From NCBI RefSeq assembly GCF_014334135.1, contig NZ_CP060497.1, forward strand, positions 2,480,001-2,544,000: a stretch of 64,000 nt of DNA, read 5' to 3'. Positions 196 through 53,340 of this stretch are shown here, piece by piece. The stretch comes from Olivibacter sp. SDN3 (GTDB lineage: Bacteria > Bacteroidota > Bacteroidia > Sphingobacteriales > Sphingobacteriaceae). Each line of letters opens with the position of its first letter. Position 1 is the stretch's first letter. Below the pieces are notes generated by a model that did not search any database, had not been told where the DNA came from, and saw nothing but the letters and a program-made list of their open reading frames with translations. A program made the position numbers and the translations under genes.

Positions 196-228
196 TAACA
201 TATGTTCCATATTTTATTACAGTTGACC

Positions 229-30245: not shown

Positions 30246-30617
30246 TTAAATCAAGCCGTTATCCCCAACTTTTAGTTCGGCGTAGTACTTTAGCTCGAGG
30301 CGTTCTCTGGGGAGTTCACCCAATGTAGATTTTTCGGAACTTAAGAATCGCTCTTCCCGACAGTATGGCTTTTGCTGCATACGTGTCTGGTTGTGCTTTG
30401 CAATACATTCGCCGATCGCCTCGTTCAGCGAGGCCAGATCAAAGAACTTTCTTTTGCGCAGTCTGGCCGGAACGACCACGGTGCCGTAATGATTGGCGAA
30501 GTCTTCCATGCAACGGTTGATCTCCGGCTCGTAACGGTCATTTCTGGTCACGGCCCGACAGCACCCCGTAAACAACCAGCTCAACCAATTTCTCCTTGAA
30601 TGCTTCCGGATACGCAA
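30246..30617 (-). pseudogene. IS21-family istA transposase, C-terminal remnant
   Basis: From about 30554 down, the residues RYEPEINRCMEDFANHYGTV and FFDLASLNEAIGECIAKHNQ, then KPYCREERFLSS and LGELPRERLELKYYAELKV, match the C-terminal half of IS21 IstA. After VVVPAR the sequence jumps to LRKRKFFDL, which leaves out about 25 residues including the region around the catalytic Glu. The first 20 residues of the ORF are unrelated. The N-terminal piece of an istA gene in the same orientation lies at 33548-33829. Confidence 0.8.
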
Positions 30618-31990: not shown

Positions 31991-32794
31991 ATGAATGCGT
32001 ATAAAGTCGGGATAAGGCGAGCGTGTGCAGTTGCAGGACTTACCAGATCCATGTGGTATTACAAGAGTAAGCGGGATGATAGCGAGGTGATCGGAAAACT
32101 TTCCCGGCTTGCCATCGAGTATTCTACCCGGGGTTTCGATGAATATTACTACAGGATCCGCTGTGAGGGCTTGAAATGGAACAGGAAGCGGGTTTTGCGT
32201 GTATACCGTCAAATGAAGCTCAAGTTGAGAAGAAAACACAGGAAGCGCCTGCCCGGAAGGGAGAAATGTCCCTTGGAGGTCCCCTTGGAACTGAATGAAT
32301 GCCGGAGCATGAATTTCATGAGCGATTCGCTTACCGACGGCAGAACGGTACGGGTATTCAACGTGATCGATGACTGCAACCGGGAGGCGCTGGCTTCCGA
32401 TATTGGGTTGTCTTTTCCGGCACGCGCTGTTATTGAAACCATGGAGAACTTAAAGGCCGAGATCGGTATACCGAAATATATCAGATGCGATAATGGACCG
32501 GAATTCCTTTCGAAGCTTTTTATGAACTGGTGAAGGCACCACATAGAGATCAGGTATACCCAGCCTGGAAAGCCGATGCAGAACGGATATGTGGAGCGCT
32601 TCAACCGTTTTTTCAGAGAGGATATACTTGATGCCTATTATTTTAACGATATATACCAGATGAGAGAAAAGGTATGGGAATGGACCGAGGATTACAACAA
32701 TAACCATCCCCATAGTTCAATGGGCAACAAATCACCGCGGGATTTTAAGCCCCGATTCAGCAAAGAATTAAAATTCTTCGCCGAATCGGGTTAA
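31991..32794 (+). pseudogene. IS3-family transposase OrfB with in-frame stop
   Basis: The rve-type DDE integrase is readable throughout one frame: IRRACAVAGLTRSMWYYKSK, SDSLTDGRTVRVFNVIDDCN (first Asp region), IRCDNGPEFLSKLFMNW (second Asp), and after the stop RYTQPGKPMQNGYVERFNRF (Glu). A TGA at 32531-32533 replaces the usual Cys codon after NW. The frame is open again immediately afterwards, so one base change is the likely cause. The upstream reading in this frame extends to 31943 (KVLKPSGKRQCATYL), where frameshifting from OrfA would enter. Confidence 0.85.
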
Positions 32795-33064: not shown

Positions 33065-33508
33065 ATGACAGAAATAAATATATACAAAAATGAATTTTGC
33101 ATTTCTACAGATAAAGCAAAATTGGATATGAATTCGATTCACGCTTTTTTGTCAAAAGCATATTGGAGCCTGAATATTCCTAAGGAAAAGGTACAAGCGG
33201 CTATAAAAAATTCTCTCTGCTTTGGTATATACAAGAACAAAAAGCAAATTGGCTTTGCGAGAGTTATTTCCGACTTTTCGACCATTGCTTATTTAGGTGA
33301 TGTTTATATTTTAGAAGATTACAGGGAGCTCGGGCTTTCTAAATGGTTGATGGAAACGATCATGAGCTATTCTCATTTACAAGGATTGAGAAGATGGATT
33401 TTACTTACCCGAGATGCGCACGAATTATATCGGAAGTTTGGATGGACGGATATCGCAGATCCTTCTATATGGATGGAATACCATAATAAAAATGTTTACT
33501 CTCAATAA
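33065..33508 (+). CDS. GNAT family N-acetyltransferase
   Basis: A 147-residue single-domain acetyltransferase: CFGIYKNKKQIGFARVISDF, then TIAYLGDVYILEDYRELGLS (acetyl-CoA loop Y-R-x-x-G-L-S), KWLMETIMSY, and ILLTRDAHELYRKFGWTDIA. This close subgroup usually has the P-x-x-WME ending seen here (DPSIWMEYHN). The substrate is unknown. It follows a truncated CMD-like gene and ends 39 bp before an istA remnant on the other strand. Confidence 0.93.
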   Translation: MTEINIYKNEFCISTDKAKLDMNSIHAFLSKAYWSLNIPKEKVQAAIKNSLCFGIYKNKKQIGFARVISDFSTIAYLGDVYILEDYRELGLSKWLMETIMSYSHLQGLRRWILLTRDAHELYRKFGWTDIADPSIWMEYHNKNVYSQ

Positions 33509-33547
33509 GTTTGAATAAAGGTTCGTTCTCCTTGCATGCTCTTTTGA

Positions 33548-33829
33548 AGGATGGCTCCGGGCCTTGTTGACCCCTTCGAAATACAGCATGAGCTCATTAT
33601 GCCGCTGGGTGTCAACGGTTGTATGGGAGGTAAACAGCTCGGCTAAGGCTGGCGTATCAAAGCGCAGGAGCTCTTCAAGCGAATATTCACTCGCTTCAAA
33701 CAACTGCATATAGGTGTTGACCGTGTTCCGGGAGATGCCCAGAAGGGAGCCTATCCTGCGGTTGCTGGTTCCGTCGAGATGTAGGGTGATTATCTGTTTT
33801 AAGTCCATCGGATCGAGTTTGTTGGCCAT
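33548..33829 (-). pseudogene. IS21-family istA transposase, N-terminal remnant
   Basis: From the ATG at 33829: MANKLDPMDLKQIITLHLDG, SNRRIGSLLGISRNTVNTYM (HTH), HNELMLYFEGVNKARSHP. This is the first 94 residues of IS21 IstA. The frame then runs into unrelated sequence. It is in the same orientation as the C-terminal fragment at 30246-30617, with the intervening 3 kb holding OYE, IS3, CMD and GNAT genes. Confidence 0.82.
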
Positions 33830-38288: not shown

Positions 38289-39065
38289 ATGAGTATGAAA
38301 AATACGTCAAAAATAAATACGCTTCTGCATTCACAACCTTATGGGACTATCTTCACCAGTGTATGGCTCATACGTAACGGATATAGTTACGCACTGCAGC
38401 AACGTTATCGAGAAAACGGATGGTTGGAGTCGGTAGGTAGTGGAGCCGCCAAACGTATTGGCGATCAAGTGTCGGTAGAAGGCGGAGTCTATACGCTGCA
38501 AAGCCAGCTAGGGCTATCTGTACACATCGGGGGAAAGTCTGCAATCGCCCTTTTGGGAAGGTCGCACTACCTACAGATGGGTATCAGCGAATTGATGTTA
38601 TTCGGAACACAGGATGAGCAGCTTCCAAAGTGGTTCAGCGAGTTTGATTGGGGAGTAAAGATCGATTACCGCGCATCAGGCTTTTTGCCGAGGGATATGG
38701 GGGTGGAGGAATTTTCCAAAGGAAATTTCACGATAAAGATATCGGGACTTGCACGGGCGCTACTGGAATGTTTATATGTTTCAGACGGCCACGATCTTGT
38801 TGAATGTTATGAATTGCTGGAAGGCATGAGCGGACTTAGACCAAAACTTGTACAGTCGCTACTGGAAAACTGCAGTTCGGTAAAGGTGAAGCGCCTGTTC
38901 CTTTTTATGGCCGAAAAAGCTGGACATGCATGGCTAAAGTATCTAAACTTAGAGGTAATCGACCTTGGTTCGGGAACCAGGAGTTTGGTAAAAAAGGGAG
39001 CGTATGTACAAAAATACGATATCACGGTACCAAAAGAACTAATGGAAAATGGAGAAAATATATAA
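38289..39065 (+). CDS. abiEi: Type IV antitoxin AbiEi
   Basis: A 258-residue protein. The N-terminal winged helix is SKINTLLHSQPYGTIFTSVW, RNGYSYALQQRYRENGWLES with VGSGAAKRIGDQVSVEGGVY. It continues QSQLGLSVHIGGKSALALLG-type sequence (here AIALLGRSHYLQMG). A C-terminal domain (LARALLECLYVSDGHDLVEC, LFLFMAEKAGHAWLKYLNLE) is typical of AbiEi. AbiEi represses its own promoter and neutralises AbiEii. It overlaps abiEii by 17 bases. Confidence 0.9.
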   Translation: MSMKNTSKINTLLHSQPYGTIFTSVWLIRNGYSYALQQRYRENGWLESVGSGAAKRIGDQVSVEGGVYTLQSQLGLSVHIGGKSAIALLGRSHYLQMGISELMLFGTQDEQLPKWFSEFDWGVKIDYRASGFLPRDMGVEEFSKGNFTIKISGLARALLECLYVSDGHDLVECYELLEGMSGLRPKLVQSLLENCSSVKVKRLFLFMAEKAGHAWLKYLNLEVIDLGSGTRSLVKKGAYVQKYDITVPKELMENGENI

Positions 39066-39948
39066 AGGTCAGGTCAAGCTGTTATTGGATGTGCTTCCGC
39101 TGGTATCAAATGAACAGTGCTTTGCACTACATGGGGGAACTGCAATCAACCTGTTCATCAGGAATATGCCGCGACTGTCGGTGGATATTGATCTTACCTA
39201 TCTCCCTATAGAGGATTGGGATACCTCGCTTGGGAATATCAACGCGGCGTTGAAAAGGATTGGTGTAGATATCGAAAAAAATATGCCAGGAACCAAGGCT
39301 ACCTTAAGGGAAGAAGCCTCTAAACTGGACATCGCTACAGCATCGGCAAGCATCAAGCTAGAGGTGAGCAAAATGGGTCGGGGATCCTATGCTCCACCAG
39401 AGATTAGGGTACTTTGTGAAAAAGCCCAGGAAGAGTACAATGCCTTTTGCGAGATTGCCGTTGTTCCCTTGGGTCAGTTATATGGTGGAAAGATCTGTGC
39501 CGCATTAGACCGTCAGCATCCTAGAGACCTTTTTGACGTCAAGTATCTGCTGGCCAACGAGGGGTTTACCGAAGAGATCAAGACGGGATTTATATTCTGT
39601 CTGCTGGGGGCAAAAAGGCCGATATCGGAATTGCTTGCTCCCAATTTCATCGATCAAAGATCAGCATTAGAAAAGCAGTTTCTGGGGATGACAGAAGAAG
39701 AGTTCAGCTATGAGGAATATGAATTGGTAAAGGTGCAGCTTGTGAAAGAAATAGCCGCTGTATTTGATGACAGCGATAGGGATTTCCTTTTAGCGTTCAA
39801 GGATACATCTCCAATCTGGGATCGGTATCCATTTGGTGGATTTCCATCGATAAAAAGAAAGGTTCAGCTATTGTTAGATCTAAAGGAAAAAAAACCTGAA
39901 AAACATACAGCTCTCTTACAAAAGCTCACTGATGTATTGGGTAGGTAA
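39049..39948 (+). CDS. abiEii: Type IV toxin AbiEii nucleotidyltransferase
   Basis: A 299-residue protein of the AbiEii/AbiGii family. LHGGTAINLFIRNMPRLSVD followed by IDLTYLP is the GG and DxD nucleotidyltransferase signature. VPLGQLYGGKICAALDRQHP and RDLFDVKYLLANEGF give the Lys and the conserved RDLFD. In the AbiE system this enzyme stalls growth on phage infection by modifying tRNA or another target with nucleotides. The gene is complete and coupled to abiEi. Confidence 0.93.
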   Translation: MEKIYKGQVKLLLDVLPLVSNEQCFALHGGTAINLFIRNMPRLSVDIDLTYLPIEDWDTSLGNINAALKRIGVDIEKNMPGTKATLREEASKLDIATASASIKLEVSKMGRGSYAPPEIRVLCEKAQEEYNAFCEIAVVPLGQLYGGKICAALDRQHPRDLFDVKYLLANEGFTEEIKTGFIFCLLGAKRPISELLAPNFIDQRSALEKQFLGMTEEEFSYEEYELVKVQLVKEIAAVFDDSDRDFLLAFKDTSPIWDRYPFGGFPSIKRKVQLLLDLKEKKPEKHTALLQKLTDVLGR

Positions 39949-40463: not shown

Positions 40464-41225
40464 TTACGAAGGTGGCAGTACCAGCCTTTTCTCCAGTAGG
40501 CGGAGCGAACAACGACCATACATCTGTCTTTTCAATGTCTTCAGCTTGTTTACGTTTTCTTCAACCGGCCCGTTGCTCCACGGTAGATCGAAGGCGTTTT
40601 TGATTTCAGCGAGATCCTGCCTAAGCCCTTTTGCAAATCCACATAATTCAGGAATCGAGGAATCGTTCACTCTCTCGATCCACTTCTGTAGACCAGCGCT
40701 GCATTGATCTTAACATCATCTGACGGAACTCTCTTATAAAAGATAAAGATCGCTTCATTACAACTGAGGCTCTGCAGAGCTGGTTTAATATGTCCGATTC
40801 ATCCTTGGAAAGCTTTTGGGGATCATTGAAAAAAGCATGGAGCTTCTCGATGGTCTCCAGAGGCTGAGATCCGAGGGCAACACTGTTTTTATTCCCTTTT
40901 TCTTACCCAATGCCAGACTATGCCTGGCCAGCCCATCGGATAAAGTAGAATATGCACCCTGATATCCGCGGCCTTTAAGTTCAGTATGTAACTGCCTTAT
41001 CTGGATGTCCGGGTTTTCTTCTTTCCTTTTCTTTATATAACCAAGATGTTCCTCCAGCCCTGTGGGCGAGATGTACGTTTTTCGCGGAAGTTCCTCGCAG
41101 AGTTTATATTTTCTGACCGTTATACGGCTCATTTTAAACCTTCTGGCTATTTCCCTGATCGGAATATCCTGTTGTAATAATCGCTTCACCTCGAATTTTT
41201 CCTGTTGACGTGGAGAAGGCTGCAA
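40464..41225 (-). pseudogene. ISL3-type transposase, frameshifted
   Basis: The 5' part (from 41225) has an HTH (PIREIARRFKMSRITVRKYK) and IQIRQLHTELKGRGYQGAYS. The frame then breaks near 40890. In another frame ETIEKLHAFFNDPQKLSKDE and LCRASVVMKRSLSFIREFRQ continue, and a third part (ORF 40464-40670) has IPELCGFAKGLRQDLAEIKN with the ISL3 ending SNGPVEENVNKLKTLKRQMY. At least two frameshifts make it inactive. The catalytic core between HTH and the late Glu region is incomplete. Confidence 0.82.
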
Positions 41226-42708: not shown

Positions 42709-45414
42709 ATGAACCAACAATTACCTCATCTCTATCTCAAAAATCCTTCGGGTCATGCATATAAGTTTGATAAATCAAGGGGCATGGAAAAAAACGATAC
42801 TATAGATAAAGACCCAGCGGCATACAGACCACATAAACAACGATTGAGTACTTCGTTTAATCAACTCCTTCTAGATAAAGCGAATAGACTACGGGATAAG
42901 CGTTTAGTTCCAGAGCATATTGAAATTATAGAAATCAGGTTTTTGATACCATTTAGTGATGGATTAAGTTATAAGACTCGGACACGGTTTTTAAATGAAT
43001 TTGGTCTATCACCAGTGATCCAAAAAGATTTCAATCGTACCGTTTTGTTTGCAATAGTTGACGAACAACGGTTTAGGCACTTCGACGCATTATTGCACCA
43101 TTATATCGAGAGTAGTGATCGTATTTCTCCAAAAGGCAAGACATACGCAATTATGACCACACTATTTGATGTCAAATATCATACGGCATCGGATATACGA
43201 AACCAACGTTCTGGTGATTTAGTTTTTGAGCTGATTAATACAACCCCTCAGATTGATGAAGTTTACGAAACTCAACACAGGGCTTTGAAGAATTATTTAG
43301 AAGCGTTAGCGCTTGTAGGTGATATTGATGATTTTTCGTTTGACCCTTATGGTAAGATGCTTCAACTGAAAGGTGCTAATAGAAATATTGTAGATGAAAT
43401 GGCAAGGAATTTTGATATTCTTGCACAGGCACATACCTTGCGTAGCCTCATTGTCAAGCCAGATCAATTTAATATCACAAAGGTGACATGGGATTTTACA
43501 ATACGGAACCGAGACGATAATCATACGGTCATCGGTGTTATCGACAATGGTATAAGACCAATTGAACCTTTGCGTGAGATTGTAATGGCCGGCATAGATA
43601 TTACACGTACAAATGATCCCTTATGGGCTGCTCATAGACATGGCACTGTCGTAGCCAGTTTAGCAGCAGTTGGTGATCGGTTTTTTACCGGTGAAGAGGA
43701 ATTGGACGCAGATGCTAAAATATATTCTATCAAGATATTGGAAAGCATTGATGGTTATATTGACGTAATTAAAGTAGTAGAAGCTATTCAGGAAGCACAC
43801 ATAAGAGATGGTGTACGCCTCTTTAATTTATCCATTTGTGCGCAGAGTAAATCATATAACGAAAGCCCTTCATTTTTTTCGTATTTACTTGATAAATTGG
43901 CCTATGAGTTAGACATCCTTATATTTATCGCTGCGGGCAATATGAATTATGATGATCTCGTGGCGATGCAAGAAAATCCGCATGATCTACATAATTACCC
44001 AAATCATTTTTACAATCCTAATATAGAATCAGATATCCATTCGTGCATATATACCAATATTTGTATTCCTGCGGAGAGTATGAATCATGTTACGATCGGT
44101 GCTCTGGCAGATAATTATAGACCAGATACAGCTGTTGATCTAAGTTTGGATAAGAATTTGCCAGCATACTATTCTCGGAAAAATCATTATGACTTTAAAC
44201 AAAAAATTAATGGTGCTGTATTAAGTTCTAATCACGGAAATAAGAATTTTTTTAAACCTGATATCGTAATGCCAGGGGGAGATCTTTTACAAAATGATGC
44301 TGCCATGCAGGTTCCAGGTTTTGGTGATGGGGGAAATGATTATTATACCTTTGATTCTGGAACAAGTCTTTCAGCACCTTTGGCAGCGAATCTAGCTGCA
44401 CAAGTGCTAAATATATATCCCGACCTCTCACTACAATCTATCAAGGCCTTGCTGATTAATTCTACTGATACTTATCCTACTAGTTATTTAGAAGAGATGG
44501 TTATCGAAAGAAAAAATAGCTTAGCGATTGAAGCATATGGAGTGCCTTTTGATAAATTGTCAGCGACGAATAAAACCAAAATTACAAGGCAAGTTCTTTC
44601 GGAAGAAACTATTCATCGCAATCTGGTTGGCCACGGTAAACCAAACAAAGAACGATTGCTTTATTCAACAGCTAATAAAGTTTCGCTCATTGTAGAAGAA
44701 ACTATCCGAACAGATCATCATAAAGTAATTCTTTTGCATGTGCCTGAATATTTATTAGAAGGTAAGGGAAATAAAAGACTTGCTATTCAAGCAACGTTAT
44801 GCTATAAGTTCAATCCCGCTTGGGGTAATCATGTGGATTATAATCCATTGCATATTTCGTTTAACTTTGCTAATAGTGTAGTGAAACACTCGTTGGATAA
44901 TTTAGCTGATATTTTGGCAGACAGAAACCATGAATATTATAAGGACAATCACTGGACGGATGAAATTAGGAATCTAGAAGATCTGAAAGCTCAGAGAGAT
45001 ATTTCTGATGAAGACAATAAAAGATTATTAAATCTTAAAATGAAGGTAAAAAACAAAGCGTTAGGTATCAAAAACTCTTTAGGGCCTTGGTCAGAAGATT
45101 TCTTTCCTTTAGTAAATAAACCGTTATCTAATAGACAGCAGCTTTCTATTCAAATATCTAAATCCGAAATTGGAAAGATAGGTAATCAAATAGCAATTGT
45201 TATGCGCTGTGCCGTCAAAGACAATTTGGATCTAGACTTACAGGAATGGGCTAGGATTACCAAAGAGCACCCTTTTTCACTTGCTCTGTCTATAGAAGAT
45301 AAGTCAAAAATTGATGGGGTTCGATTGTACGATGAGATACAGGCTGTTAATATCCTTGAAGCAGTTCCAAACAATATTACGCAACTAGATCAAGATTTAG
45401 ATATTGAGCTATAA
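42709..45414 (+). CDS. ietS: S8 subtilisin-like protease of an IetAS-like system
   Basis: A 901-residue protein with no signal peptide, hence cytoplasmic. A 240-residue N-terminal region of unknown fold is followed by the subtilase core. The triad is complete: D279 in GVIDNGI, H311 in AHRHGTVVAS, S553 in SGTSLSAPLAA, with the oxyanion Asn N411 in AAGN. A 300-residue C-terminal part follows (YNPLHISFNFANSVVKHS and charged helices). A cytoplasmic S8 protease next to an AAA ATPase is the IetS/IetA pair, first described as a plasmid stability module and later as an anti-phage system. Here the pair is tail to tail, 27 bp apart, instead of in one operon. The system assignment rests on domain pairing. 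Confidence 0.88.
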   Translation: MNQQLPHLYLKNPSGHAYKFDKSRGMEKNDTIDKDPAAYRPHKQRLSTSFNQLLLDKANRLRDKRLVPEHIEIIEIRFLIPFSDGLSYKTRTRFLNEFGLSPVIQKDFNRTVLFAIVDEQRFRHFDALLHHYIESSDRISPKGKTYAIMTTLFDVKYHTASDIRNQRSGDLVFELINTTPQIDEVYETQHRALKNYLEALALVGDIDDFSFDPYGKMLQLKGANRNIVDEMARNFDILAQAHTLRSLIVKPDQFNITKVTWDFTIRNRDDNHTVIGVIDNGIRPIEPLREIVMAGIDITRTNDPLWAAHRHGTVVASLAAVGDRFFTGEEELDADAKIYSIKILESIDGYIDVIKVVEAIQEAHIRDGVRLFNLSICAQSKSYNESPSFFSYLLDKLAYELDILIFIAAGNMNYDDLVAMQENPHDLHNYPNHFYNPNIESDIHSCIYTNICIPAESMNHVTIGALADNYRPDTAVDLSLDKNLPAYYSRKNHYDFKQKINGAVLSSNHGNKNFFKPDIVMPGGDLLQNDAAMQVPGFGDGGNDYYTFDSGTSLSAPLAANLAAQVLNIYPDLSLQSIKALLINSTDTYPTSYLEEMVIERKNSLAIEAYGVPFDKLSATNKTKITRQVLSEETIHRNLVGHGKPNKERLLYSTANKVSLIVEETIRTDHHKVILLHVPEYLLEGKGNKRLAIQATLCYKFNPAWGNHVDYNPLHISFNFANSVVKHSLDNLADILADRNHEYYKDNHWTDEIRNLEDLKAQRDISDEDNKRLLNLKMKVKNKALGIKNSLGPWSEDFFPLVNKPLSNRQQLSIQISKSEIGKIGNQIAIVMRCAVKDNLDLDLQEWARITKEHPFSLALSIEDKSKIDGVRLYDEIQAVNILEAVPNNITQLDQDLDIEL

Positions 45415-45441
45415 CTAAGTTGCAGAGATAAAAATCATTTC

Positions 45442-46467
45442 TTATCCAATAGCCAATGCTTCCTTTTCTTCCGCTACCAGTTGCTTCCAGATAGCAGTAT
45501 CTATTTTAGGCTTTAAGGCTCTTGTATTTTTAGTTCCAAACAGGCTGCGCTTCATCGCGGTTACAAGTGTCTTTTGGATACTGTAGTAGGAAAGGCCTTC
45601 CGCCTCTTTTATGATGCTATTCGTTGCAGTCTTTTTATCGAAAGAGAATTCACCTTTCTTCAACGTGAGGTCAATCAATTGCTGAATCTCTTCTTTAGTG
45701 GGTAACTCAAAAGCTATGGATACATCAAAGCGACGGAGCAGCGCTTCGTCCAGCATATTCTTCTGATTGGTAGCGGCAATCACCATGCTGCTTTGCGGCA
45801 GGTAGTCAAACAACTGCAAAATTGTATTTACTACACGCTTCATTTCACCATGGTCCTGGCTATAATCGCGTACCTTACCTAATGAATCAAACTCATCAAT
45901 AAAGATAATGCAATCTTCCTGCGTAGCCCTTCTGAACAATTTGGCCAGGTTCTTACTCGTTTCGCCTAATTTGGCTGAGACGATAGCACCTAAGTTCACT
46001 ACAATCATGAGCTTTTTCAACTCGCCTGCTATCACGTATGAAGCCAACGTCTTGCCGCAGCCCGAAGGGCCATGCAGTAAAAGCTTATTTGATAAGGGTA
46101 AATTGTGCTTGTTTAATAGTTCAGCATGGCTGTGCTCATCTAAGAAGTTAACCAGCTTGTCCTTCACTTCGAGAGGGCTCACCAAATTTTCCAACGAATA
46201 GTCAGACGTGAGCTTTTCCAAGATCAGCTCATCCGTTTCCCTGTCATTTAGCTGTTGATAGTGTGATGGAGAACCCACCTTTAACATACCTCCAGTTTCC
46301 TGCTTGCGTACTGCGTCTTTCAAGATAGATTGCAGTTGCAGGGCAAAATTAATCTTCTTGGTACTTTTAGCGTGATCTATAAACTCGTTCAGCGTAGCCA
46401 ATAGCTTTTCACGATCGTTCTCCAACCCGAAACGCGCTATGTCTTTTATATAGTCTTGCTGGCTCAT
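45442..46467 (-). CDS. ietA: AAA ATPase of an IetAS-like system
   Basis: A 341-residue AAA+ protein. After a 125-residue helical N-terminus, Walker A GPSGCGKT lies at 133-140, Walker B IIFIDEFD at 187-194, sensor 1 is IAATNQ, and ALLRRFDVSIAFELPTKEEI holds the arginine-finger/sensor-2 region. The clade is that of classical AAA proteins (FtsH/spastin-like), which act as hexameric unfoldases. With the neighbouring S8 protease it could unfold or present substrates, in analogy to IetA. A -7 box lies 25 bases upstream and a palindrome about 110 bases upstream. Confidence 0.9.
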   Translation of the reverse strand: MSQQDYIKDIARFGLENDREKLLATLNEFIDHAKSTKKINFALQLQSILKDAVRKQETGGMLKVGSPSHYQQLNDRETDELILEKLTSDYSLENLVSPLEVKDKLVNFLDEHSHAELLNKHNLPLSNKLLLHGPSGCGKTLASYVIAGELKKLMIVVNLGAIVSAKLGETSKNLAKLFRRATQEDCIIFIDEFDSLGKVRDYSQDHGEMKRVVNTILQLFDYLPQSSMVIAATNQKNMLDEALLRRFDVSIAFELPTKEEIQQLIDLTLKKGEFSFDKKTATNSIIKEAEGLSYYSIQKTLVTAMKRSLFGTKNTRALKPKIDTAIWKQLVAEEKEALAIG

Positions 46468-46788: not shown

Positions 46789-46897
46789 CAAATAATAAAG
46801 ATCTAAACCAAAATGAACATAATTATTACCACTACTATCAATACGGTTGGTCATTAGATCATTGATCCTTAGTTCATTTCCCGAAACACTAATTTTA

Positions 46898-48334
46898 ATG
46901 ATACGTATATATCTTGATTGGAACGTAGTTAGTAACCTGAAAAAACCTGATTTTTTCGGAATAAAAGATTTTATAGAACTCAACAAGCATAGATTTATCT
47001 TTCCTTATAGCCAGGCGCACTTTTCAGATCTCATGAAGAGTAATAAACAAGATAATCCTTATTTTCAGGTAGATTTAAATACACTGACTTCGCTCGCTGG
47101 CAAACATTTGTTGTGTTACGAAAATGGGATGGTTACGCCAAAGTTTGGCACACCGGGAATGTATTACAAAGATTACGATGATGGTTTGGATAATGCCTCG
47201 CTTTTTGATATGGAAGCAAACTTTAATCTTTTTGATGAAATGGGTAGGGAAATGGGTGTAGAGGATATAGGGACGCACGTTAAAAAAATATTTGACGCAA
47301 TTCCTTCTCTCATAGAGATAACAGACAAGAATAAAGATACAATGAAGCTTTTCTTCCCTGGTTTGAAAGAAGGCGCTACTCAATGGGACGTATTTAAAGA
47401 GAGCGGGTTTTTGTTGGGTCGAATGCTGGAAGATAGGATTTATTACAAAAATCTACGCAAAACTATATCTGGAGAAGGATTTCATTTGGACAGAAACTCC
47501 GGAAACTGGAACGTAGAGGATGTAATTGATAACATTAATAAGTTTCTTAGAAATATTGGCCTGGATAAGGATTTCTTAGGTTTTATGGATTACATCTTTG
47601 AACTGAGAAATGAAAATCCAGATGACATGACCTATTTTTCCGGTTGTTATAGTATGCTGGATATGATGGGTTATAAATCGGACAAGTTACCGAAGACAAC
47701 TGATACGGCAATGAACATCTATACTGACGCTCATCACGCATACTATGCCGGACACTGTGATTACTTTATTGTAGGTGATGAAAACCTTGCTAAGAAAGCG
47801 AAGGTGTTATACAAGCTGTTTGATGTTAAGACTGTGGTACTCCACCCTAGCGAAATGGTGCAAAAAGTGGGTGAAGTAATGGTAGATTTTTCGGTTGAAA
47901 ATATTGGCTTTTTAAATGCCGCTTTCGAACTTATCAAACGAGGAATGGATTTTAAAGAGTATCCTGAATTGAGTGAGAATGGAAGCAGACACGTCTCATA
48001 TAGGTTGCCAGCATTCTATTTCGACTTTTTTAATTACGTATCATGGGAGGAATATCCCGATAAAAATGCTTTACTTATTACATTTAAAAAGCGAAAAAGG
48101 AATTTTTCGAAATTTTACTATTATACTGAAATAGAGTCTATCGTTCGTTTAGTTGTTAGCTTTTTTGATCGGAAGTGTGATTTCGATCTGGAAAATATTA
48201 CGCAAGATATTAAAAATGGAAAAGAAGTAAGTTTTAGCATAATGACTGATTTTGGTCTTGTAGCATTAAACTTCGAGGAGGTTGATGGATTGAAAAGACC
48301 GCAATTGGTTTATGTGGTATCAGTAAAATATTGA
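46898..48334 (+). CDS. PIN-like nuclease domain protein
   Basis: The start is set at MIRIYLDWNVVSNLKKPDFF, which begins with the PIN first strand and Asp (YLDWN). The second acidic patch is TDAHHAYYAGHCDYFIVGDE, followed by NLAKKAKVLYKLFDVKTVVL, the third and fourth conserved acidic positions of PIN RNases. Between them lies a roughly 230-residue helical insert; a 130-residue C-terminal extension follows (LPAFYFDFFNYVSWEEYPDK). PIN proteins of this size in defence islands probably cut RNA on a trigger. The upstream region shares the repeat and palindrome with the S8 gene. The helical unknown follows 54 bp downstream. Confidence 0.78.
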   Translation: MIRIYLDWNVVSNLKKPDFFGIKDFIELNKHRFIFPYSQAHFSDLMKSNKQDNPYFQVDLNTLTSLAGKHLLCYENGMVTPKFGTPGMYYKDYDDGLDNASLFDMEANFNLFDEMGREMGVEDIGTHVKKIFDAIPSLIEITDKNKDTMKLFFPGLKEGATQWDVFKESGFLLGRMLEDRIYYKNLRKTISGEGFHLDRNSGNWNVEDVIDNINKFLRNIGLDKDFLGFMDYIFELRNENPDDMTYFSGCYSMLDMMGYKSDKLPKTTDTAMNIYTDAHHAYYAGHCDYFIVGDENLAKKAKVLYKLFDVKTVVLHPSEMVQKVGEVMVDFSVENIGFLNAAFELIKRGMDFKEYPELSENGSRHVSYRLPAFYFDFFNYVSWEEYPDKNALLITFKKRKRNFSKFYYYTEIESIVRLVVSFFDRKCDFDLENITQDIKNGKEVSFSIMTDFGLVALNFEEVDGLKRPQLVYVVSVKY

Positions 48335-48388
48335 TTGAACAAGCGAATACAAGGTCGCTGTATCCAACTTAAATTAACAATTTTTATT

Positions 48389-49069
48389 ATGAAAAGCAGT
48401 TTAACGCTTGCTGGAGAGTCTTTAGAATCTTCAGTTGCAAAAGAAAACTTATTGGAAATCATTGGAGATTTATCAGATTCTGCGCTAGAAAAACTGCTTG
48501 ATCTTGGTGACGCTTTACCTATATTTTCTTATCTTACAAAAGGTCTGAAAACGACAATTGCTATTAGAGATGCCATTTTTTTGGAAAAGGTCGTTGCCTT
48601 CTTACAAAATGTGGGCAAGATACCGAACGATAGTAGAGTCAAAATGATCTCCAAAATTCAGAATGATGAGAAATATCGGAATAAATTTGGCAAATTTTCT
48701 CTCATCGCCTTGGATCGATTTAATGATGAATATAAGGCTAAATATTTAGGAATTGCAGTGCAGTATCTCGCAAGAGAAGAAATTCCATTTGATTTTTATA
48801 AGCGATTTAGCCATTTCTTAGATAGTTTGACGGTTGACGATTTACAACAATTCACAGAAGAGACATTTTTGAATTTTGGTCGAAATACATTTTATGCCTT
48901 TGAGTCTCTCGGCCTTATCTCAATCTCTCTAAAACTACCTACCGAAAATGACAGAAAATCAGCATGGAGAGAGGATCCTAATATTATTAAGGTAAGTCGA
49001 CGTTCTTTAACTGATTGGGGACATATGACTAAAAATATTTTATTGGAACTACCTATCTCTATAAAATAG
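48389..49069 (+). CDS. Helical protein of unknown function
   Basis: The start is set at MKSSLTLAGESLESSVAKEN, since the 18 residues before it look non-coding. It is a 226-residue, mostly helical protein: LLEIIGDLSDSALEKLLDLG, LPIFSYLTKGLKTTIAIRDA, FLEKVVAFLQNVGKIPNDSR. The central DAIFLEKVVAFL region is amphipathic and could bind a membrane or a partner. The end (FGRNTFYAFESLGLISISLK) looks like a small winged helix. I do not recognise the family. It lies in an operon-like arrangement behind the PIN gene. Confidence 0.68.
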   Translation: MKSSLTLAGESLESSVAKENLLEIIGDLSDSALEKLLDLGDALPIFSYLTKGLKTTIAIRDAIFLEKVVAFLQNVGKIPNDSRVKMISKIQNDEKYRNKFGKFSLIALDRFNDEYKAKYLGIAVQYLAREEIPFDFYKRFSHFLDSLTVDDLQQFTEETFLNFGRNTFYAFESLGLISISLKLPTENDRKSAWREDPNIIKVSRRSLTDWGHMTKNILLELPISIK

Positions 49070-49556: not shown

Positions 49557-50339
49557 ATGGAAGTAGAAAAAAAGATTGCAGAAGAAGTAGTGGGTCTATC
49601 AAAAGATATCTATGCCGACGTTGCGAAACCAATTCTTTCTGAAGTTGGAAAAACAGGTGGTGGAATAACACGAATTTTGTTATCGCCACTTAATGGACTC
49701 GTTTGGGGATTCGATAAAATAGTAGAAAATTTAGATAATACTATTTCTGAAAAACTTAATAAAGTATCTGAAGCGAAACTTCAAACACCACCGCCTTTTG
49801 TTGCAGTACCTTCTTTAGAAGCTATGAGATACACTGGTGAGGTGGAAGAATTAAGAAATCTCTATGCAAACCTGTTAGCTAATTCAATGGATATGGATAC
49901 TATCGAAAATGTGCATCCAGGGTTTGTCGATATCATCAAAAATTTAACACCGGATGAAGCAAAATTACTTACAGTGTTTTTGAGGGTAGAATCTTTGCCA
50001 TTTATAGATGTCAAGCAAGTAGACGATAAGATACAAAGAAGTTTTGTTGTTACAATTAAGATGCACACACATGTTATTGACGAATTTGAGCTAGAACTTT
50101 TGTACCCTTGTAATCTTCCAGTTTATTTCTCTAACTTGATCAGGATCGGAATTTTGGAGAGTCCTAATAATTTAAGTCTTGATGATCAGAAATATAGCGA
50201 GTTAGAAACATGTGAATATATCTTGGAGGAAAAAGAAAAAATTGAAGCGGAGGGAAAAATATTTGAGGTAGATCGCCGATTTATCAGACCAACATCTTTT
50301 GGATATCAGTTTATTAACACGGTAGTTAAAGACAAATAG
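49557..50339 (+). CDS. Abi-alpha (DUF4393) abortive-infection-like protein
   Basis: A 260-residue protein. It starts with IAEEVVGLSKDIYADVAKPI, then GGGITRILLSPLNGLVWGFD (a glycine-rich membrane-seeking stretch), NTISEKLNKVSEAKLQTPPP, and EELRNLYANLLANSMDMDTI with VHPGFVDIIKNLTPDEAKLL. These are hallmarks of the Abi-alpha/DUF4393 family, linked to abortive infection in other bacteria. The glycine-rich segment suggests membrane association. The mechanism is unknown. It is monocistronic. Confidence 0.85.
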   Translation: MEVEKKIAEEVVGLSKDIYADVAKPILSEVGKTGGGITRILLSPLNGLVWGFDKIVENLDNTISEKLNKVSEAKLQTPPPFVAVPSLEAMRYTGEVEELRNLYANLLANSMDMDTIENVHPGFVDIIKNLTPDEAKLLTVFLRVESLPFIDVKQVDDKIQRSFVVTIKMHTHVIDEFELELLYPCNLPVYFSNLIRIGILESPNNLSLDDQKYSELETCEYILEEKEKIEAEGKIFEVDRRFIRPTSFGYQFINTVVKDK

Positions 50340-50784: not shown

Positions 50785-51348
50785 TTATAGAAAAGATACT
50801 ACTGGATACTTCCGTTTTGGAGAATTTACTATATCTTTATCCCGAGTGCAAATTATCCACTGCTTTCTGTTAGCAAGCTCTACGAAATATGAATCATTGT
50901 AATCTAGATGGTTGCACCCATTCAAAATGCTGTTGATGTCTATGCTATTAAAATCATCACTATATTTATCAGCAAGCTTCATTATTTGATTAATAGAGGC
51001 CTTAATCGAGGTGACGTCATCATTAAATTCTGGTGAAGGCCGATAAAGTTTTTTCAAGACCTGTGTTTTGTTTAAGTCTTTTTGCTTTTCTGCATTTTCA
51101 GGCTTTTCCTTCCACTCTTGAAAATAATCTTTAAATACAACATTATAGAACTCAGACAATACTAGTGACGTTGTCGCAAGACCTGCAGATACAGATTTGG
51201 CTTTTGTTAAAAAAGTAGTAATATTCAATTGAACGTTCGCTCCATAATTACCGATAGGAGCATAGGCAAATAGAAGAATACTGTTGTCTAACAAATACGT
51301 ATGACTAGATTTAGGACTAAAATCCTTAAATGGAATAATTTCGGCCAT
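50785..51348 (-). CDS. PIN-like nuclease of a GHKL/STAS/PIN operon
   Basis: A 187-residue protein with four acidic positions arranged as in PIN RNases: D21 in TYLLDNSILLFAYAP, E66 in LVLSEFYNVVF, D149/D152 in HLDYNDSYFVELANRKQWII, and D170 in CTRDKDI. The start overlaps the STAS-like stop codon (TAATG), so translation is coupled. It is the terminal gene of a three-gene reverse operon and the likely effector. The nuclease assignment is from motif spacing and has not been shown. Confidence 0.75.
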   Translation of the reverse strand: MAEIIPFKDFSPKSSHTYLLDNSILLFAYAPIGNYGANVQLNITTFLTKAKSVSAGLATTSLVLSEFYNVVFKDYFQEWKEKPENAEKQKDLNKTQVLKKLYRPSPEFNDDVTSIKASINQIMKLADKYSDDFNSIDINSILNGCNHLDYNDSYFVELANRKQWIICTRDKDIVNSPKRKYPVVSFL

Positions 51349-51686
51349 TATTGATCGTATCTATCTCCAATTTTTTTATCAAAAGAGTCCTTATCGGCAA
51401 AATACTCCTTTGCCCGTTTAATAACCTTTCTTAGTAGGTTTTTATCGTCATCAGCAAGATTTACAATTTTCAAATATTCATTCAACTCTTCTGAGCTAAA
51501 GTCAGAATAAAGTCGACCTATTGCAGAATTTAAAAATGCTGTAGAAAGTATTTGGACCTTACTGAAATCAATAATAGCAACATTCTTATTTCTAACAATG
51601 TTCCTTATTTCTTGGTATAACAGATGGGCTGGCTCTGGAGAAAGTGCCACATCAGATTTTATAACGTCAACAACTTTTAATTCCAT
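51348..51686 (-). CDS. STAS-like DUF4325 protein
   Basis: A 112-residue protein. The N-terminal and middle part LYQEIRNIVRNKNVAIIDFS and KVQILSTAFLNSAIGRLYSD matches the STAS-like DUF4325 fold: a strand, then the conserved FSKVQILSTAFLN where anti-anti-sigma STAS domains carry their phospho-acceptor Ser. Two Ser/Thr are available here (S68, T69 approximately). Such proteins are usually encoded beside a GHKL ATPase, as they are here: the GHKL gene ends 14 bases upstream. It may be the switch part of a partner-switch module. Confidence 0.82.
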   Translation of the reverse strand: MELKVVDVIKSDVALSPEPAHLLYQEIRNIVRNKNVAIIDFSKVQILSTAFLNSAIGRLYSDFSSEELNEYLKIVNLADDDKNLLRKVIKRAKEYFADKDSFDKKIGDRYDQ

Positions 51687-51700
51687 CTTTTGTCTATTGT

Positions 51701-52588
51701 TTAGAAAACAAGATCATCGTCATTTTGTTCGGAGTGTAAAACATAGAAATTGTTGTCATTTAGCTTAATCTCCATATTTACGATCGTTCCAGGAAAAGAG
51801 TTAGCAATATAAGAGATTTTTTTATCACCTCCTAATATTTCGACAAACCCATCAGACGAAACTATTTGAAGTTTACCGTTGTTCATTGCAATGAGCTGAT
51901 AAACCTCGTTTAGACCTAAACCACCTGGAGTATTGCCTTCTTTTGTAGTATTGCCTTCTTCTAGCGCCCACATTATACACTCTCCGCCAGATAAGCTCTT
52001 CTTTAGATAATCATTTACATTCTGTTTGATTGTTCTACCTGTGTCTACAAATGAAACAATCGCTTTACTCAAAGTACCGCGGTATATTTGACCACAGCAG
52101 TGGACAATTTCACAACCACTATGAGTTACAGCATTTACACAAATCTCAAAAATATTGCTTATGACTTTTTTCTTTGCCTTATCAGACATCATGGGCATTC
52201 GTGGTTTATTAAAAAGTTGCTTGTAAAAAAAATCTGTGGCAGCCTTTTCATCATCTCGACCAAATATTTTGTAGGGTATACATGTGTTTCTGTCATCAGA
52301 TTCTTGTATAGCGAATTGATAATGATACAAAAAGTCATTTCTTTTTAACAATCCCAGTATTTTATCCCTGACATTTATAATGGTGACGGTATTTCCATTA
52401 AAATGGAGGTCTCTGATTAATGCTCCTAAAACAGCACAAAGATTTCCTTGTATAAATAAACAATGATAAAAGTCTATAGTAATATTGTCAATAAAGCATT
52501 CACTTGTTTCGTTTGCTAGGCGAGATAAAAAATCAAATCCATCGGAATTTCCGTTGAGATGTATTGGTATATGAAATGTATAGTCCAT
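51701..52588 (-). CDS. GHKL (HATPase_c) ATPase-like protein
   Basis: A 295-residue protein. The C-terminal half is a Bergerat-fold ATPase: N-box NIFEICVNAVTHSG with E148/N152, G1 box SFVDTGR (D182-x-G184), G2 box TPGGLGLNEV at 221-230. There is no HisKA domain, so it is not a conventional histidine kinase but is closer to RsbW/SpoIIAB-type anti-sigma kinases or MORC/Hsp90-like switches. The N-terminal 130 residues (HLNGNSDGFDFLSRLANETS, CVLGALIRDLHFNGNTV-type) form a second, STAS-like or sensory domain. It is the first gene of the operon. Confidence 0.82.
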   Translation of the reverse strand: MDYTFHIPIHLNGNSDGFDFLSRLANETSECFIDNITIDFYHCLFIQGNLCAVLGALIRDLHFNGNTVTIINVRDKILGLLKRNDFLYHYQFAIQESDDRNTCIPYKIFGRDDEKAATDFFYKQLFNKPRMPMMSDKAKKKVISNIFEICVNAVTHSGCEIVHCCGQIYRGTLSKAIVSFVDTGRTIKQNVNDYLKKSLSGGECIMWALEEGNTTKEGNTPGGLGLNEVYQLIAMNNGKLQIVSSDGFVEILGGDKKISYIANSFPGTIVNMEIKLNDNNFYVLHSEQNDDDLVF

Positions 52589-52777
52589 AATTTTATGTGC
52601 CTGCCCGAAGACGCTAGTGTAATTATTTCGCTTATCTTAAAAATAGATGCTAACTAACTTCCGCAAACCCGCAAACGTCTTTCATAGATGCGGATTGGAT
52701 CCGATCCCTCGTCTAAATCATTTTCCATAATTTGTCAACCGTAATTCTATAAGACGGCTAGCAACTTTGATCTCTAA

Positions 52778-53299
52778 CTACTCTGCCTTCAACTCCACGT
52801 CTTTAAACAACTCATTAAACAATTCACCCGGTTCCTTATCGGCTGCCATTTCAATGAGTGCAAGTTCGTAGGTTTCAATTTTTTCAAAACCTAATTTGGT
52901 TAAGCGATATAATCGATCCCGTTTTATTCCGGTTCGGTAGGCTAGTATATCAAGGTTAAAGTCTTCGAGTGAAAAAATTAATATGCCCGTATCGGAAGTG
53001 TCTCCCTTGATGCTCTTGGAAAGTGGTTTGTCTGTATATTGAAGGTTTAAATTTGGATATACCTCCCTTAAGTATACGTCGATTGGGTCTCCAACAAAAA
53101 GTGCAATTTTCCAGGATTCTATTGCAGGTATTGATTTAGTGGTTCCATTGCGCATTTTCCGGAGAGTCTCGACGTGGATTCCGGTCAATGCCGAGATGTT
53201 AGTACTATCTTGGCCTTTATCTCTTAATTTTCTTGTTAAATAAGGGCCTAATGAGTTCTTTGGTGCTTCAACTTTCAAAATTCGATTCGTTTGAATCAT
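52778..53299 (-). CDS. XRE-like helix-turn-helix regulator
   Basis: The start may be 53299 (MIQTNRILKVEAP) or 53335. A helix-turn-helix is visible at the N-terminus: LTRKLRDKGQDSTNISALTG, HVETLRKMRNGTTKSIPAIE. A second similar segment follows: LDILAYRTGIKRDRLYRLTK, LGFEKIETYELALIEMAADK. Two HTH units in one 174-residue chain suggest a DNA-binding repressor. It lies 190 bp upstream of, and in the same direction as, the GHKL/STAS/PIN operon and might control it. A long palindrome lies just upstream. Confidence 0.72.
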   Translation of the reverse strand: MIQTNRILKVEAPKNSLGPYLTRKLRDKGQDSTNISALTGIHVETLRKMRNGTTKSIPAIESWKIALFVGDPIDVYLREVYPNLNLQYTDKPLSKSIKGDTSDTGILIFSLEDFNLDILAYRTGIKRDRLYRLTKLGFEKIETYELALIEMAADKEPGELFNELFKDVELKAE

Positions 53300-53340
53300 A
53301 AAAGTAACTGAGCAGAAAGGTAAAGGCAATTTCATTGAAA

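Follow-up and report, generated by a model that had tools for sequence, protein, structure and literature searches.

A distant, divergent copy of the VapKSC toxin system among defence genes of Olivibacter sp. SDN3

Three genes encoding a GHKL ATPase, a small STAS-like protein and a PIN-domain protein lie close together in the genome of Olivibacter sp. SDN3, and their arrangement raises the question which biological switch they form and whether it has been described before. The window analysed here is a stretch of 64,000 nucleotides, in which the trio spans positions 50785-52588 on the minus strand, the kinase gene first and the STAS and PIN genes following it, with all three reading frames open, 14 bases between the first two genes and a single base shared by the last two in the sequence TAATG (ORF list). 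A sequence-only reading had described this layout correctly and had taken the trio for an undescribed system, a claim to be given up, by its own account, if the genes matched an already named one. The trio is not undescribed because it matches such a system, VapKSC; it is a distant, divergent copy of it and in itself ordinary. Which protein is the antitoxin and which the kinase had been left open in that reading. The features are collected in Table 1.

Table 1. Genes and protein features of the locus (gene positions refer to the window)
Feature	Position	Strand	Description
vapK	51701..52588	-	295 aa ORF; STAS-like N-terminal part and GHKL kinase-like C-terminal part
STAS-like domain of vapK	about residues 10-95		from the family profile
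GHKL motifs of vapK	E148/N152/H156; D182-x-G184; 222-226		N-box; D-x-G; GGLGL
Candidate ssDNA-stacking aromatic of vapK	F45		putative
vapS	51348..51686	-	112 aa ORF; STAS-like protein (DUF4325), predicted antitoxin; T49 as putative phospho-acceptor; residues 93-112 form the C-terminal tail
vapC	50785..51348	-	187 aa ORF; predicted PIN-domain nuclease; acids D21, E66, D149, D152, D170, D172
HTH gene	52778-53335		upstream of vapK; 185 aa ORF; PF13443 1.4e-6

VapKSC is an anti-phage toxin system that Chambers et al. 2026 (EMBO J, June 2026, PMC13373217) described in Escherichia sp. E4736. The Escherichia VapC is toxic, its toxicity is abolished by D28A, and it is neutralised by the antitoxin VapS, with which it forms a 2:2 complex (PDB 9Z7O). 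The C-terminal region of VapS reaches the active site of VapC, and a Ser/Thr in its STAS domain, S48, is absolutely conserved; the substitution S48E leads to a loss of both neutralisation and binding. VapK is proposed as the kinase that inactivates VapS and carries F54, a ssDNA aromatic equivalent to W68 of CapK. The operon confers about 2-log protection against phage Bas42, which is gone in D28A, S48A and F54A. The Escherichia VapK was insoluble, and both the phosphorylation of VapS and the activation of VapK by ssDNA stand as proposals (PMC13373217).

The window VapS is a clear DUF4325 protein (PF14213, 6.8e-13) and on its own matches the VapS of 9Z7O at 8.1e-10, the family profile doing so at 3.1e-27. 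Its tail aligns to the structure as far as residue 107 of 112, and T49 falls opposite S66 of the VapS chain, which we infer from the lengths to correspond to S48, assuming a tag of 18 residues on the chain. This column is S or T in all 102 loci (S in 80, T in 22), a count for which the column lay outside the pattern of the genome scan and inside that of the viral scan. Of 14 named genomes searched with DUF4325 as a control, three gave matches, namely those of Escherichia coli, Bacteroides ihuae and Methanosarcina acetivorans. For VapC, the family profile matches 9Z7O at 5.1e-20 and places its first Asp, the D21 column, opposite D28 when counted on the printed alignment. A phmmer search of the PDB with the window VapC alone matched no VapC, the link to 9Z7O running through the family profile only, and in Pfam the window protein by itself reaches PIN at 0.016, under the cut-off. 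The PIN-like acidic positions noticed earlier are present, but they number six rather than four and are near-invariant, kept in 100-101 of 100-102 sequences.

In VapK all ATPase residues named in the sequence-only reading are present, and E148, N152, H156 and G184 each occur in 101/101 sequences with a residue in the column. HATPase_c was assigned to 29 of 38 VapK proteins and STAS_2 to 3, the window protein alone reaching HATPase_c at 0.047, under the Pfam cut-off. By family profile the N-terminal half of VapK resembles a STAS domain, positions 20-89 matching the anti-sigma antagonist TM1442 (5.6e-4); the sequence-only reading had not mentioned this half. The GHKL part of the family profile is by sequence nearer to histidine kinases (top match, 0.0042) than to anti-sigma kinases ('Anti-sigma F factor', weak, 0.3-0.4), a point against the VapKSC assignment. 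Within the STAS part, F45 sits in a column that is W or F in 94 of 97 sequences and might, as a guess, be the counterpart of Escherichia F54. In PADLOC, the DrmA model PDLC02567 matches 31/38 VapK proteins and, weakly, the window VapS; we suspect a fused or contaminated model.

The architecture of VapK, namely STAS plus GHKL without a CapK-type N-terminal HTH by Pfam and family profile, is that of VapKSC and bears on a transcription switch of the CapK-CapS type governing a neighbouring immune operon. An HTH stands at the N-terminus of CapK and a winged HTH at the C-terminus of CapS (PMC13373217). Such a switch would share the GHKL and STAS make-up and would suit the defence-gene neighbours, but no HTH appears in the 295 aa VapK or the 112 aa VapS in Pfam at E up to 1 and the neighbouring Abi_alpha gene lies on the opposite strand (ORF list); membership was rejected, and this explanation is highly improbable.

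A classical sigma-factor partner switch of the RsbW/RsbV type, with an unrelated PIN gene, would be suggested by the window N-box and STAS phospho-acceptor, which resemble those of SpoIIAB/SpoIIAA; that pair has the N-box ExxxNxxxH and a STAS phospho-acceptor. Against it, the PIN gene is next in 110 of 137 loci read, and the divergence of the three proteins is correlated: their identity matrices, compared over 91 of 102 loci after 11 with split or partial genes were dropped, give r = 0.92, 0.89 and 0.84, with 0/999 permutations as high. With a VapS-VapC crystal structure also at hand (9Z7O), a sigma switch can practically be set aside. Membership in the RsbW/RsbV class was rejected, as Pfam matched none of the four proteins to a sigma factor and a PIN gene stands in that place.

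Well outside the circle of close relatives the trio is found again, in 102 loci with the window included and in the same gene order, and 27 of the 137 loci read are without the full trio, some being cut at contig ends and others missing a gene. Profiles built from relatives with the window left out recover the window genes at 1.1e-85 (vapK), 1.8e-33 (vapS) and 3e-29 (vapC), the trio gene being in each case the single window ORF matched at E up to 0.01. Median pairwise identity is 30% for PIN and 39% for VapK, with the PIN acids and the GHKL N-box still near-invariant. Within the genus just 1 of 5 genomes has a vapK match, and within the family sample 5 of 151 do; a first scan of genome contigs with the window VapK gave no match. 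A VapS-profile match was found in 5 of 369 genomes from the class of a Nitrosomonas genome, 2 of them weak. The search of plasmids and phages for an Escherichia-like VapK on which F54 could be anchored, made with the VapK of locus L016, returned three already-known records and nothing further, and the Escherichia VapS fragment matched no viral contig and, among plasmids, a Deinococcus record only.

The divergence of the window copy could also mean that it is decayed or inactive. It departs from consensus at VapC N23S and W25L and at VapK G186T, and its end branch in a quick tree is long (1.24). Against this, the frames are open, the six PIN acids, the N-box and the phospho-acceptor are kept, and the same departures are found in other sequences (S23 in 2/100, L25 in 6/100, T186 in 4/101, window counted), and we regard decay as very unlikely.

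The window locus is thus very probably a vapKSC operon in which VapK frees the VapC RNase from VapS upon phage infection or DNA damage, each functional step being proposed for this copy from its sequence. In the resting state VapS would bind and block VapC. Single-stranded DNA arising from phage infection or other DNA damage would switch on the STAS-GHKL kinase VapK, which would phosphorylate VapS at the conserved Ser/Thr, T49 in the window copy; VapS would release VapC, which may then cut cellular RNA, and the resulting growth arrest would block phage spread. The partner switch with PIN nuclease output suggested earlier agrees with the model backed by experiment for the Escherichia operon (PMC13373217).

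The defence setting is also borne out, with neighbours that match AbiEi (1.6e-80), AbiEii (5.9e-106), IetS (6.5e-34), IetA (2e-70), PDC-S47 (2.4e-53) and Abi_alpha (3.4e-52). The HTH gene upstream, which had been counted to the unit, is real, but it does not seem to belong to it and was rejected as a component because relatives about 70% identical, L181 (71%) and L182 (70%, one internal stop), stand in two family genomes outside the 5 in which vapK was matched. They adjoin TonB/SusC-type and other genes (named by eye), and of the 102 trio loci no more than 4 have an HTH-like gene upstream that could be recognised by eye.

The same switch might serve mainly for general growth arrest under DNA damage or stress, with phage defence as a by-product, which overlaps with the preferred reading and is not exclusive of it. 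The boundary between immune and stress pathways is called blurred in PMC13373217, and 67/102 loci show none of six searched defence proteins in the flanking DNA covered, which is often short. Speaking against a chiefly stress-related role are the defence genes around the window copy, the presence of vapKSC on phage or prophage records (L004, L045, L046), the nesting of some relatives in other defence operons and the protection against phage that the Escherichia operon was measured to give (PMC13373217), and we consider this emphasis rather unlikely.

This nesting concerns 23 of 102 loci, where vapKSC is flanked by two core genes belonging to a type III R-M, Hma or BREX operon. Thirteen of the 23 abut core genes on both sides, stop-start overlaps are frequent, and the VapKSC tree has the nested loci in three distinct parts; no report of such nesting was found in the literature searched. 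By analogy with PrrC, which is embedded in the type IC R-M locus EcoprrI (review PMC12707154), the nesting suggests built-in fail-safe toxins. With the methylase on one side and the helicase or restriction subunit on the other, the cassette might act as a PrrC-like guard bringing its own sensor: should the front line fail or DNA break, the ssDNA-type kinase would free the RNase and the cell would shut down. We lean slightly towards the view that VapKSC lineages have been incorporated within other defence operons as embedded fail-safes, the free-standing window copy being the unattached form. The nesting survey may outweigh the window copy in importance, since one cassette stands at the seam of three DNA-modification defences in some relatives, and a restriction-suicide wiring via a DNA-damage sensor is therefore directly testable. 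The window copy for its part carries an experimentally described Escherichia system into a distant lineage with key residues kept and is therefore usable to probe the generality of the kinase-antitoxin-toxin mechanism.

Compared with known systems, the window operon shares with VapKSC of Escherichia sp. E4736 the K-S-C order, the domain make-up, the PIN acids, the Ser/Thr phospho-acceptor, the VapS C-terminal tail and the defence-gene surroundings, while being very divergent, with Thr for Ser, a few consensus departures and another host organism. As in VapBC, an antitoxin holds a PIN nuclease, but in VapKSC it is a STAS protein with proposed control by phosphorylation and not the DNA-binding VapB; VapBC membership was rejected, the antitoxin gene being DUF4325 with no HTH or AbrB-type match in Pfam at E up to 1. 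CapK-CapS likewise pairs a STAS-GHKL kinase with a STAS partner, whereas neither window protein shows an HTH or winged HTH and a nuclease gene replaces the controlled promoter. In SpoIIAB/SpoIIAA and RsbW/RsbV, as proposed for the window, a GHKL kinase acts on a STAS protein at Ser/Thr; the window unit differs in having no sigma factor and in a kinase that itself includes a STAS domain, and the separate STAS protein of VapKSC inhibits a PIN nuclease. PrrC/EcoprrI resembles some relatives, not the window copy, in that an RNase toxin gene is embedded in a DNA-modification defence locus (PMC12707154); PrrC answers inhibition of the R-M enzyme, whereas VapKSC carries its own sensor kinase and antitoxin.

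The three-gene locus of the window belongs to VapKSC, a system already known, of which it is a divergent new member. The sequence-only reading had taken the trio for a candidate undescribed system, and this no longer holds, since family profiles of the two smaller proteins match PDB structure 9Z7O, the DUF4325 profile its 'Escherichia VapS' (3.1e-27) and the PIN profile its 'Escherichia VapC' (5.1e-20). When window VapC alone was the query, 9Z7O was not found. The operon was named vapKSC in EMBO J on 9 June 2026, with VapK as a STAS-GHKL kinase, VapS as antitoxin and VapC as toxin; 289 instances are reported, 103 of them with a PADLOC-identified immune gene within 10 kb (PMC13373217). In that work D28A abolishes VapC toxicity, neutralisation by VapS is abolished by S48E or by loss of its C-terminus, and the operon gives about 2-log protection against phage Bas42 that is abolished in D28A, S48A and F54A, while activation of VapK by ssDNA is proposed by the authors without a direct assay (PMC13373217). 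The mechanism is backed by published experiments on one homologue and is predicted for the window copy. In the PIN family profile the window D21 column stands opposite VapC D28. Window T49 of the DUF4325 protein stands opposite 9Z7O chain residue 66, which would be S48 given an 18-residue tag, as judged from lengths, and window F45, in a column that is W or F in 94 of 97 sequences, is a candidate equivalent of VapK F54.

Within the window operon, 14 bases separate the first and second genes, and the second and third overlap by one base (TAATG). The 112-aa protein is a clear DUF4325 member (PF14213, 6.8e-13), while the Pfam matches to HATPase_c (0.047) and PIN (0.016) are hints only. Neither the kinase nor the PIN protein has a PADLOC or NCBIfam match at E up to 1, and at that threshold the 112-aa protein weakly matches DrmA (0.00027) and a lipoprotein (0.019). 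Profiles made without the window recover its genes at 1.1e-85, 1.8e-33 and 3e-29. The PADLOC DrmA model PDLC02567, which gives the weak VapS match, also matches 31 of 38 VapK proteins, so that vapK may receive a 'DrmA' label from annotation pipelines.

In its N-terminal half the kinase resembles a STAS domain: positions 20-89 of the family profile match the anti-sigma antagonist TM1442 (5.6e-4) and RsbS (0.021), and STAS_2 is matched by 3 of 38 kinase proteins (Pfam). HATPase_c is recognised in the C-terminal half of 29 of the 38; among PDB entries this half comes closest to histidine kinases (0.0042, 0.019), and 'Anti-sigma F factor' (SpoIIAB) follows at just 0.3-0.4. Its N-box, ExxxNxxxH, is of the SpoIIAB/RsbW form.

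A relative of the GHKL gene is present in one of five genus genomes and in five of 151 sampled family genomes, in all five of which the other two genes follow, and tblastn found relatives in one plasmid record (Deinococcus gobiensis P5) and two phage records, each with the full trio. A phylum survey with the DUF4325 profile against 296 genomes gave 29 places in 27 genomes: the full trio at 15 (13 by seed profiles, 2 more by a wider profile), kinase and DUF4325 but no PIN gene at 6, both fused as one protein at 2, and DUF4325 alone, cut or degenerate at 6. Altogether the trio was found in 110 of 137 loci examined, or 102 once 8 identical copies were dropped (71 from genome contigs, for which the best 80 of 326 DUF4325 relatives were used, 11 from viral contigs and 20 from other searches). 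The three genes recur together across genomes, at 102 loci including the window's own, in about twenty phyla as judged from the names of genome-contig records; one locus (L067, on a 4,225-base contig) comes from a Thermoplasmata archaeon bin and may be mis-binned.

Across these loci the PIN acidic residues are nearly invariant (D21 100/100, E66 100/100, D149 101/102, D152 101/102, D170 101/101, D172 100/101), as are GHKL E148, N152, H156, G184 and G223 (101/101 each), and the column at window T49, which lay outside the pattern of the genome scan and inside that of the viral scan, is serine at 80 of the 102 loci and threonine at the other 22. Pairs of sequences share a median identity of 42% in DUF4325, 39% in the kinase and 30% in PIN. 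With 11 loci set aside because their genes are split or partial, the remaining 91 give correlated identity matrices for the three proteins (r 0.92, 0.89 and 0.84; as high in 0 of 999 permutations), so that the three genes appear to move together as a cassette.

Other make-ups were observed. Six loci (L023, L024, L025, L030, L031, L037) have a GHKL kinase and a short DUF4325 gene with no PIN gene found, and, by eye, the neighbours of the L030 and L031 pairs are an integrase and a RadC-like gene. Two natural kinase-DUF4325 fusions fit direct contact between the two proteins. On viral contig L056 a 408-aa gene of unrecognised kind, possibly another output, separates the two genes. In Streptococcus phage Javan172 a whole vapKSC adjoins the integrase of the temperate phage, behind HTH and ImmA-like peptidase genes (by eye), its PIN ORF being without annotation. 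In Francisella phage vB_FhiM_KIRK a 293-aa hypothetical protein (Fhv_0046) is followed by a 112-aa DUF4325 protein (Fhv_0047) beside the CI repressor (PMC7924643), which probably makes this temperate phage a further carrier of a vapK-vapS pair.

Features of the window and of collected loci (L numbers)
Feature	Location or loci	Strand	Detail
Three-gene operon	50785-52588	-	295, 112, 187 aa; ORFs
AbiEi/AbiEii	38289-39948
IetS/IetA pair	42709-46467
Adjoining genes in island	46847-48334; 48335-49069		495 aa; 244 aa
Abi_alpha/PDC-S47	49557-50339
HTH gene	52778-53335
Transposase-like ORF pieces	30246-30617; 31991-32533; 33425-33829; 40785-41225		by eye
Kinase-DUF4325 fusions	L028 520-1806; L034 481-1728
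Kinase, 408-aa and DUF4325 genes	L056 1087-3632
Javan172 vapKSC	L004 3063-5685
BREX neighbours	L065		PglXI 1443 bits; BrxHI 1498 bits; PADLOC
Hma neighbours	L114		HmaA 1701 bits; HmaB 1.4e-228; PADLOC
Type III R-M neighbours	L091		methyltransferase 7.1e-110; restriction enzyme 5.5e-21; PADLOC
BREX-nested vapKSC	L061, L065, L066, L069, L072, L087
Hma-nested vapKSC	L080-L083, L085, L094, L095, L104, L114, L136
Type III R-M-nested vapKSC	L084, L091, L096, L106, L109, L110, L116
Close-nested loci	L061, L065, L069, L072, L080, L081, L084, L085, L091, L095, L096, L106, L114

The surrounding defence island holds AbiE, IetS/IetA and Abi_alpha/PDC-S47 genes; G+C is 0.33-0.37 at 42-54 kb and 0.43 in the AbiE genes, against 0.46-0.49 at 54-60 kb. 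The upstream two-HTH regulator, earlier counted with the unit, was rejected as a part of it: relatives 70-71% identical occur in two genomes of the family that have no vapK match, adjoining TonB/SusC-type and other genes (by eye), and an HTH-like upstream gene was seen in at most 4 of the 102 trio loci (by eye). The island edge therefore probably falls between vapK and this gene. Inside the island, the 495-aa and 244-aa products have no Pfam or PADLOC matches (E up to 0.01), and the former opens with a PIN-like stretch, IYLDWNVVSNLKK (by eye); the two are possibly an undescribed defence pair. Transposase-like pieces are scattered near the island. By path length in a quick tree, the window cassette is nearest to L046, L015, L052 and L045; the branch joining them has support 94, but the window row is a long branch and its position thus unsure. 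IMG/VR is the source of three of these four contigs; L046 adjoins a terminase-like gene and L045 is flanked by lysin-like and LexA-like genes (by eye).

The part of the result that deserves follow-up is the nesting of relatives in other defence operons; the window copy is not nested. Six neighbour proteins of L065, L114 and L091 were compared with the 102 loci by BLAST. At least one lies on the same strand in 35 loci, all within the 71 genome-contig loci, and none was found in the other 67, many of which have short flanks; a 4-base overlap joins vapK to such a gene just upstream in 20 of the 102. At 23 loci vapKSC stands between a matching pair (HmaA-HmaB 10, Mod-Res 7, PglX-BrxH 6), often with 4-base stop-start overlaps with the host genes; both neighbours lie at -60 to +250 bases in 13, and in the other ten as much as about 2 kb intervenes on at least one side, the downstream Res of L110 being a mere fragment. 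These counts give no prevalence, because the 71 loci were chosen by likeness to one Chlorobiaceae sequence. Pfam counts agree, with N6_N4_Mtase (12), Helicase_C (6) and SNF2 (5) among 36 close upstream genes (87 loci with room) and ResIII (9), DUF1156 (6) and SNF2 (5) among 50 close downstream genes (97 loci with room).

In a FastTree cassette tree of 93 loci (the 102 less 9 whose genes are split or partial), Mod/Res, Hma and BREX hosts occupy separate parts, needing 1, 2 and 1 changes against shuffled means of 10.4, 9.3 and 7.3, counted over 32 labelled rows only, some labelled from one side alone. These parts also contain unlabelled rows; with unlabelled rows scored as a fourth state, the tree takes 10 changes. 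Among 250 genomes from one order, 25 have a relative of the L091 Mod, and vapK was found at one of 11 Mod loci examined, the query's own (one of the 11 is almost without 3' flank); the cassette is optional in its host operons.

Literature searches for vapKSC and for three of BREX, VapC, PglX and GHKL together found no paper besides PMC13373217. The term 'type iii' is absent from its main text, nested cases may stand in its Dataset EV3, and the text available describes R-M sandwiching for capKS only. The closest precedent for vapKSC nested in defence operons is PrrC embedded in EcoprrI (PMC12707154).
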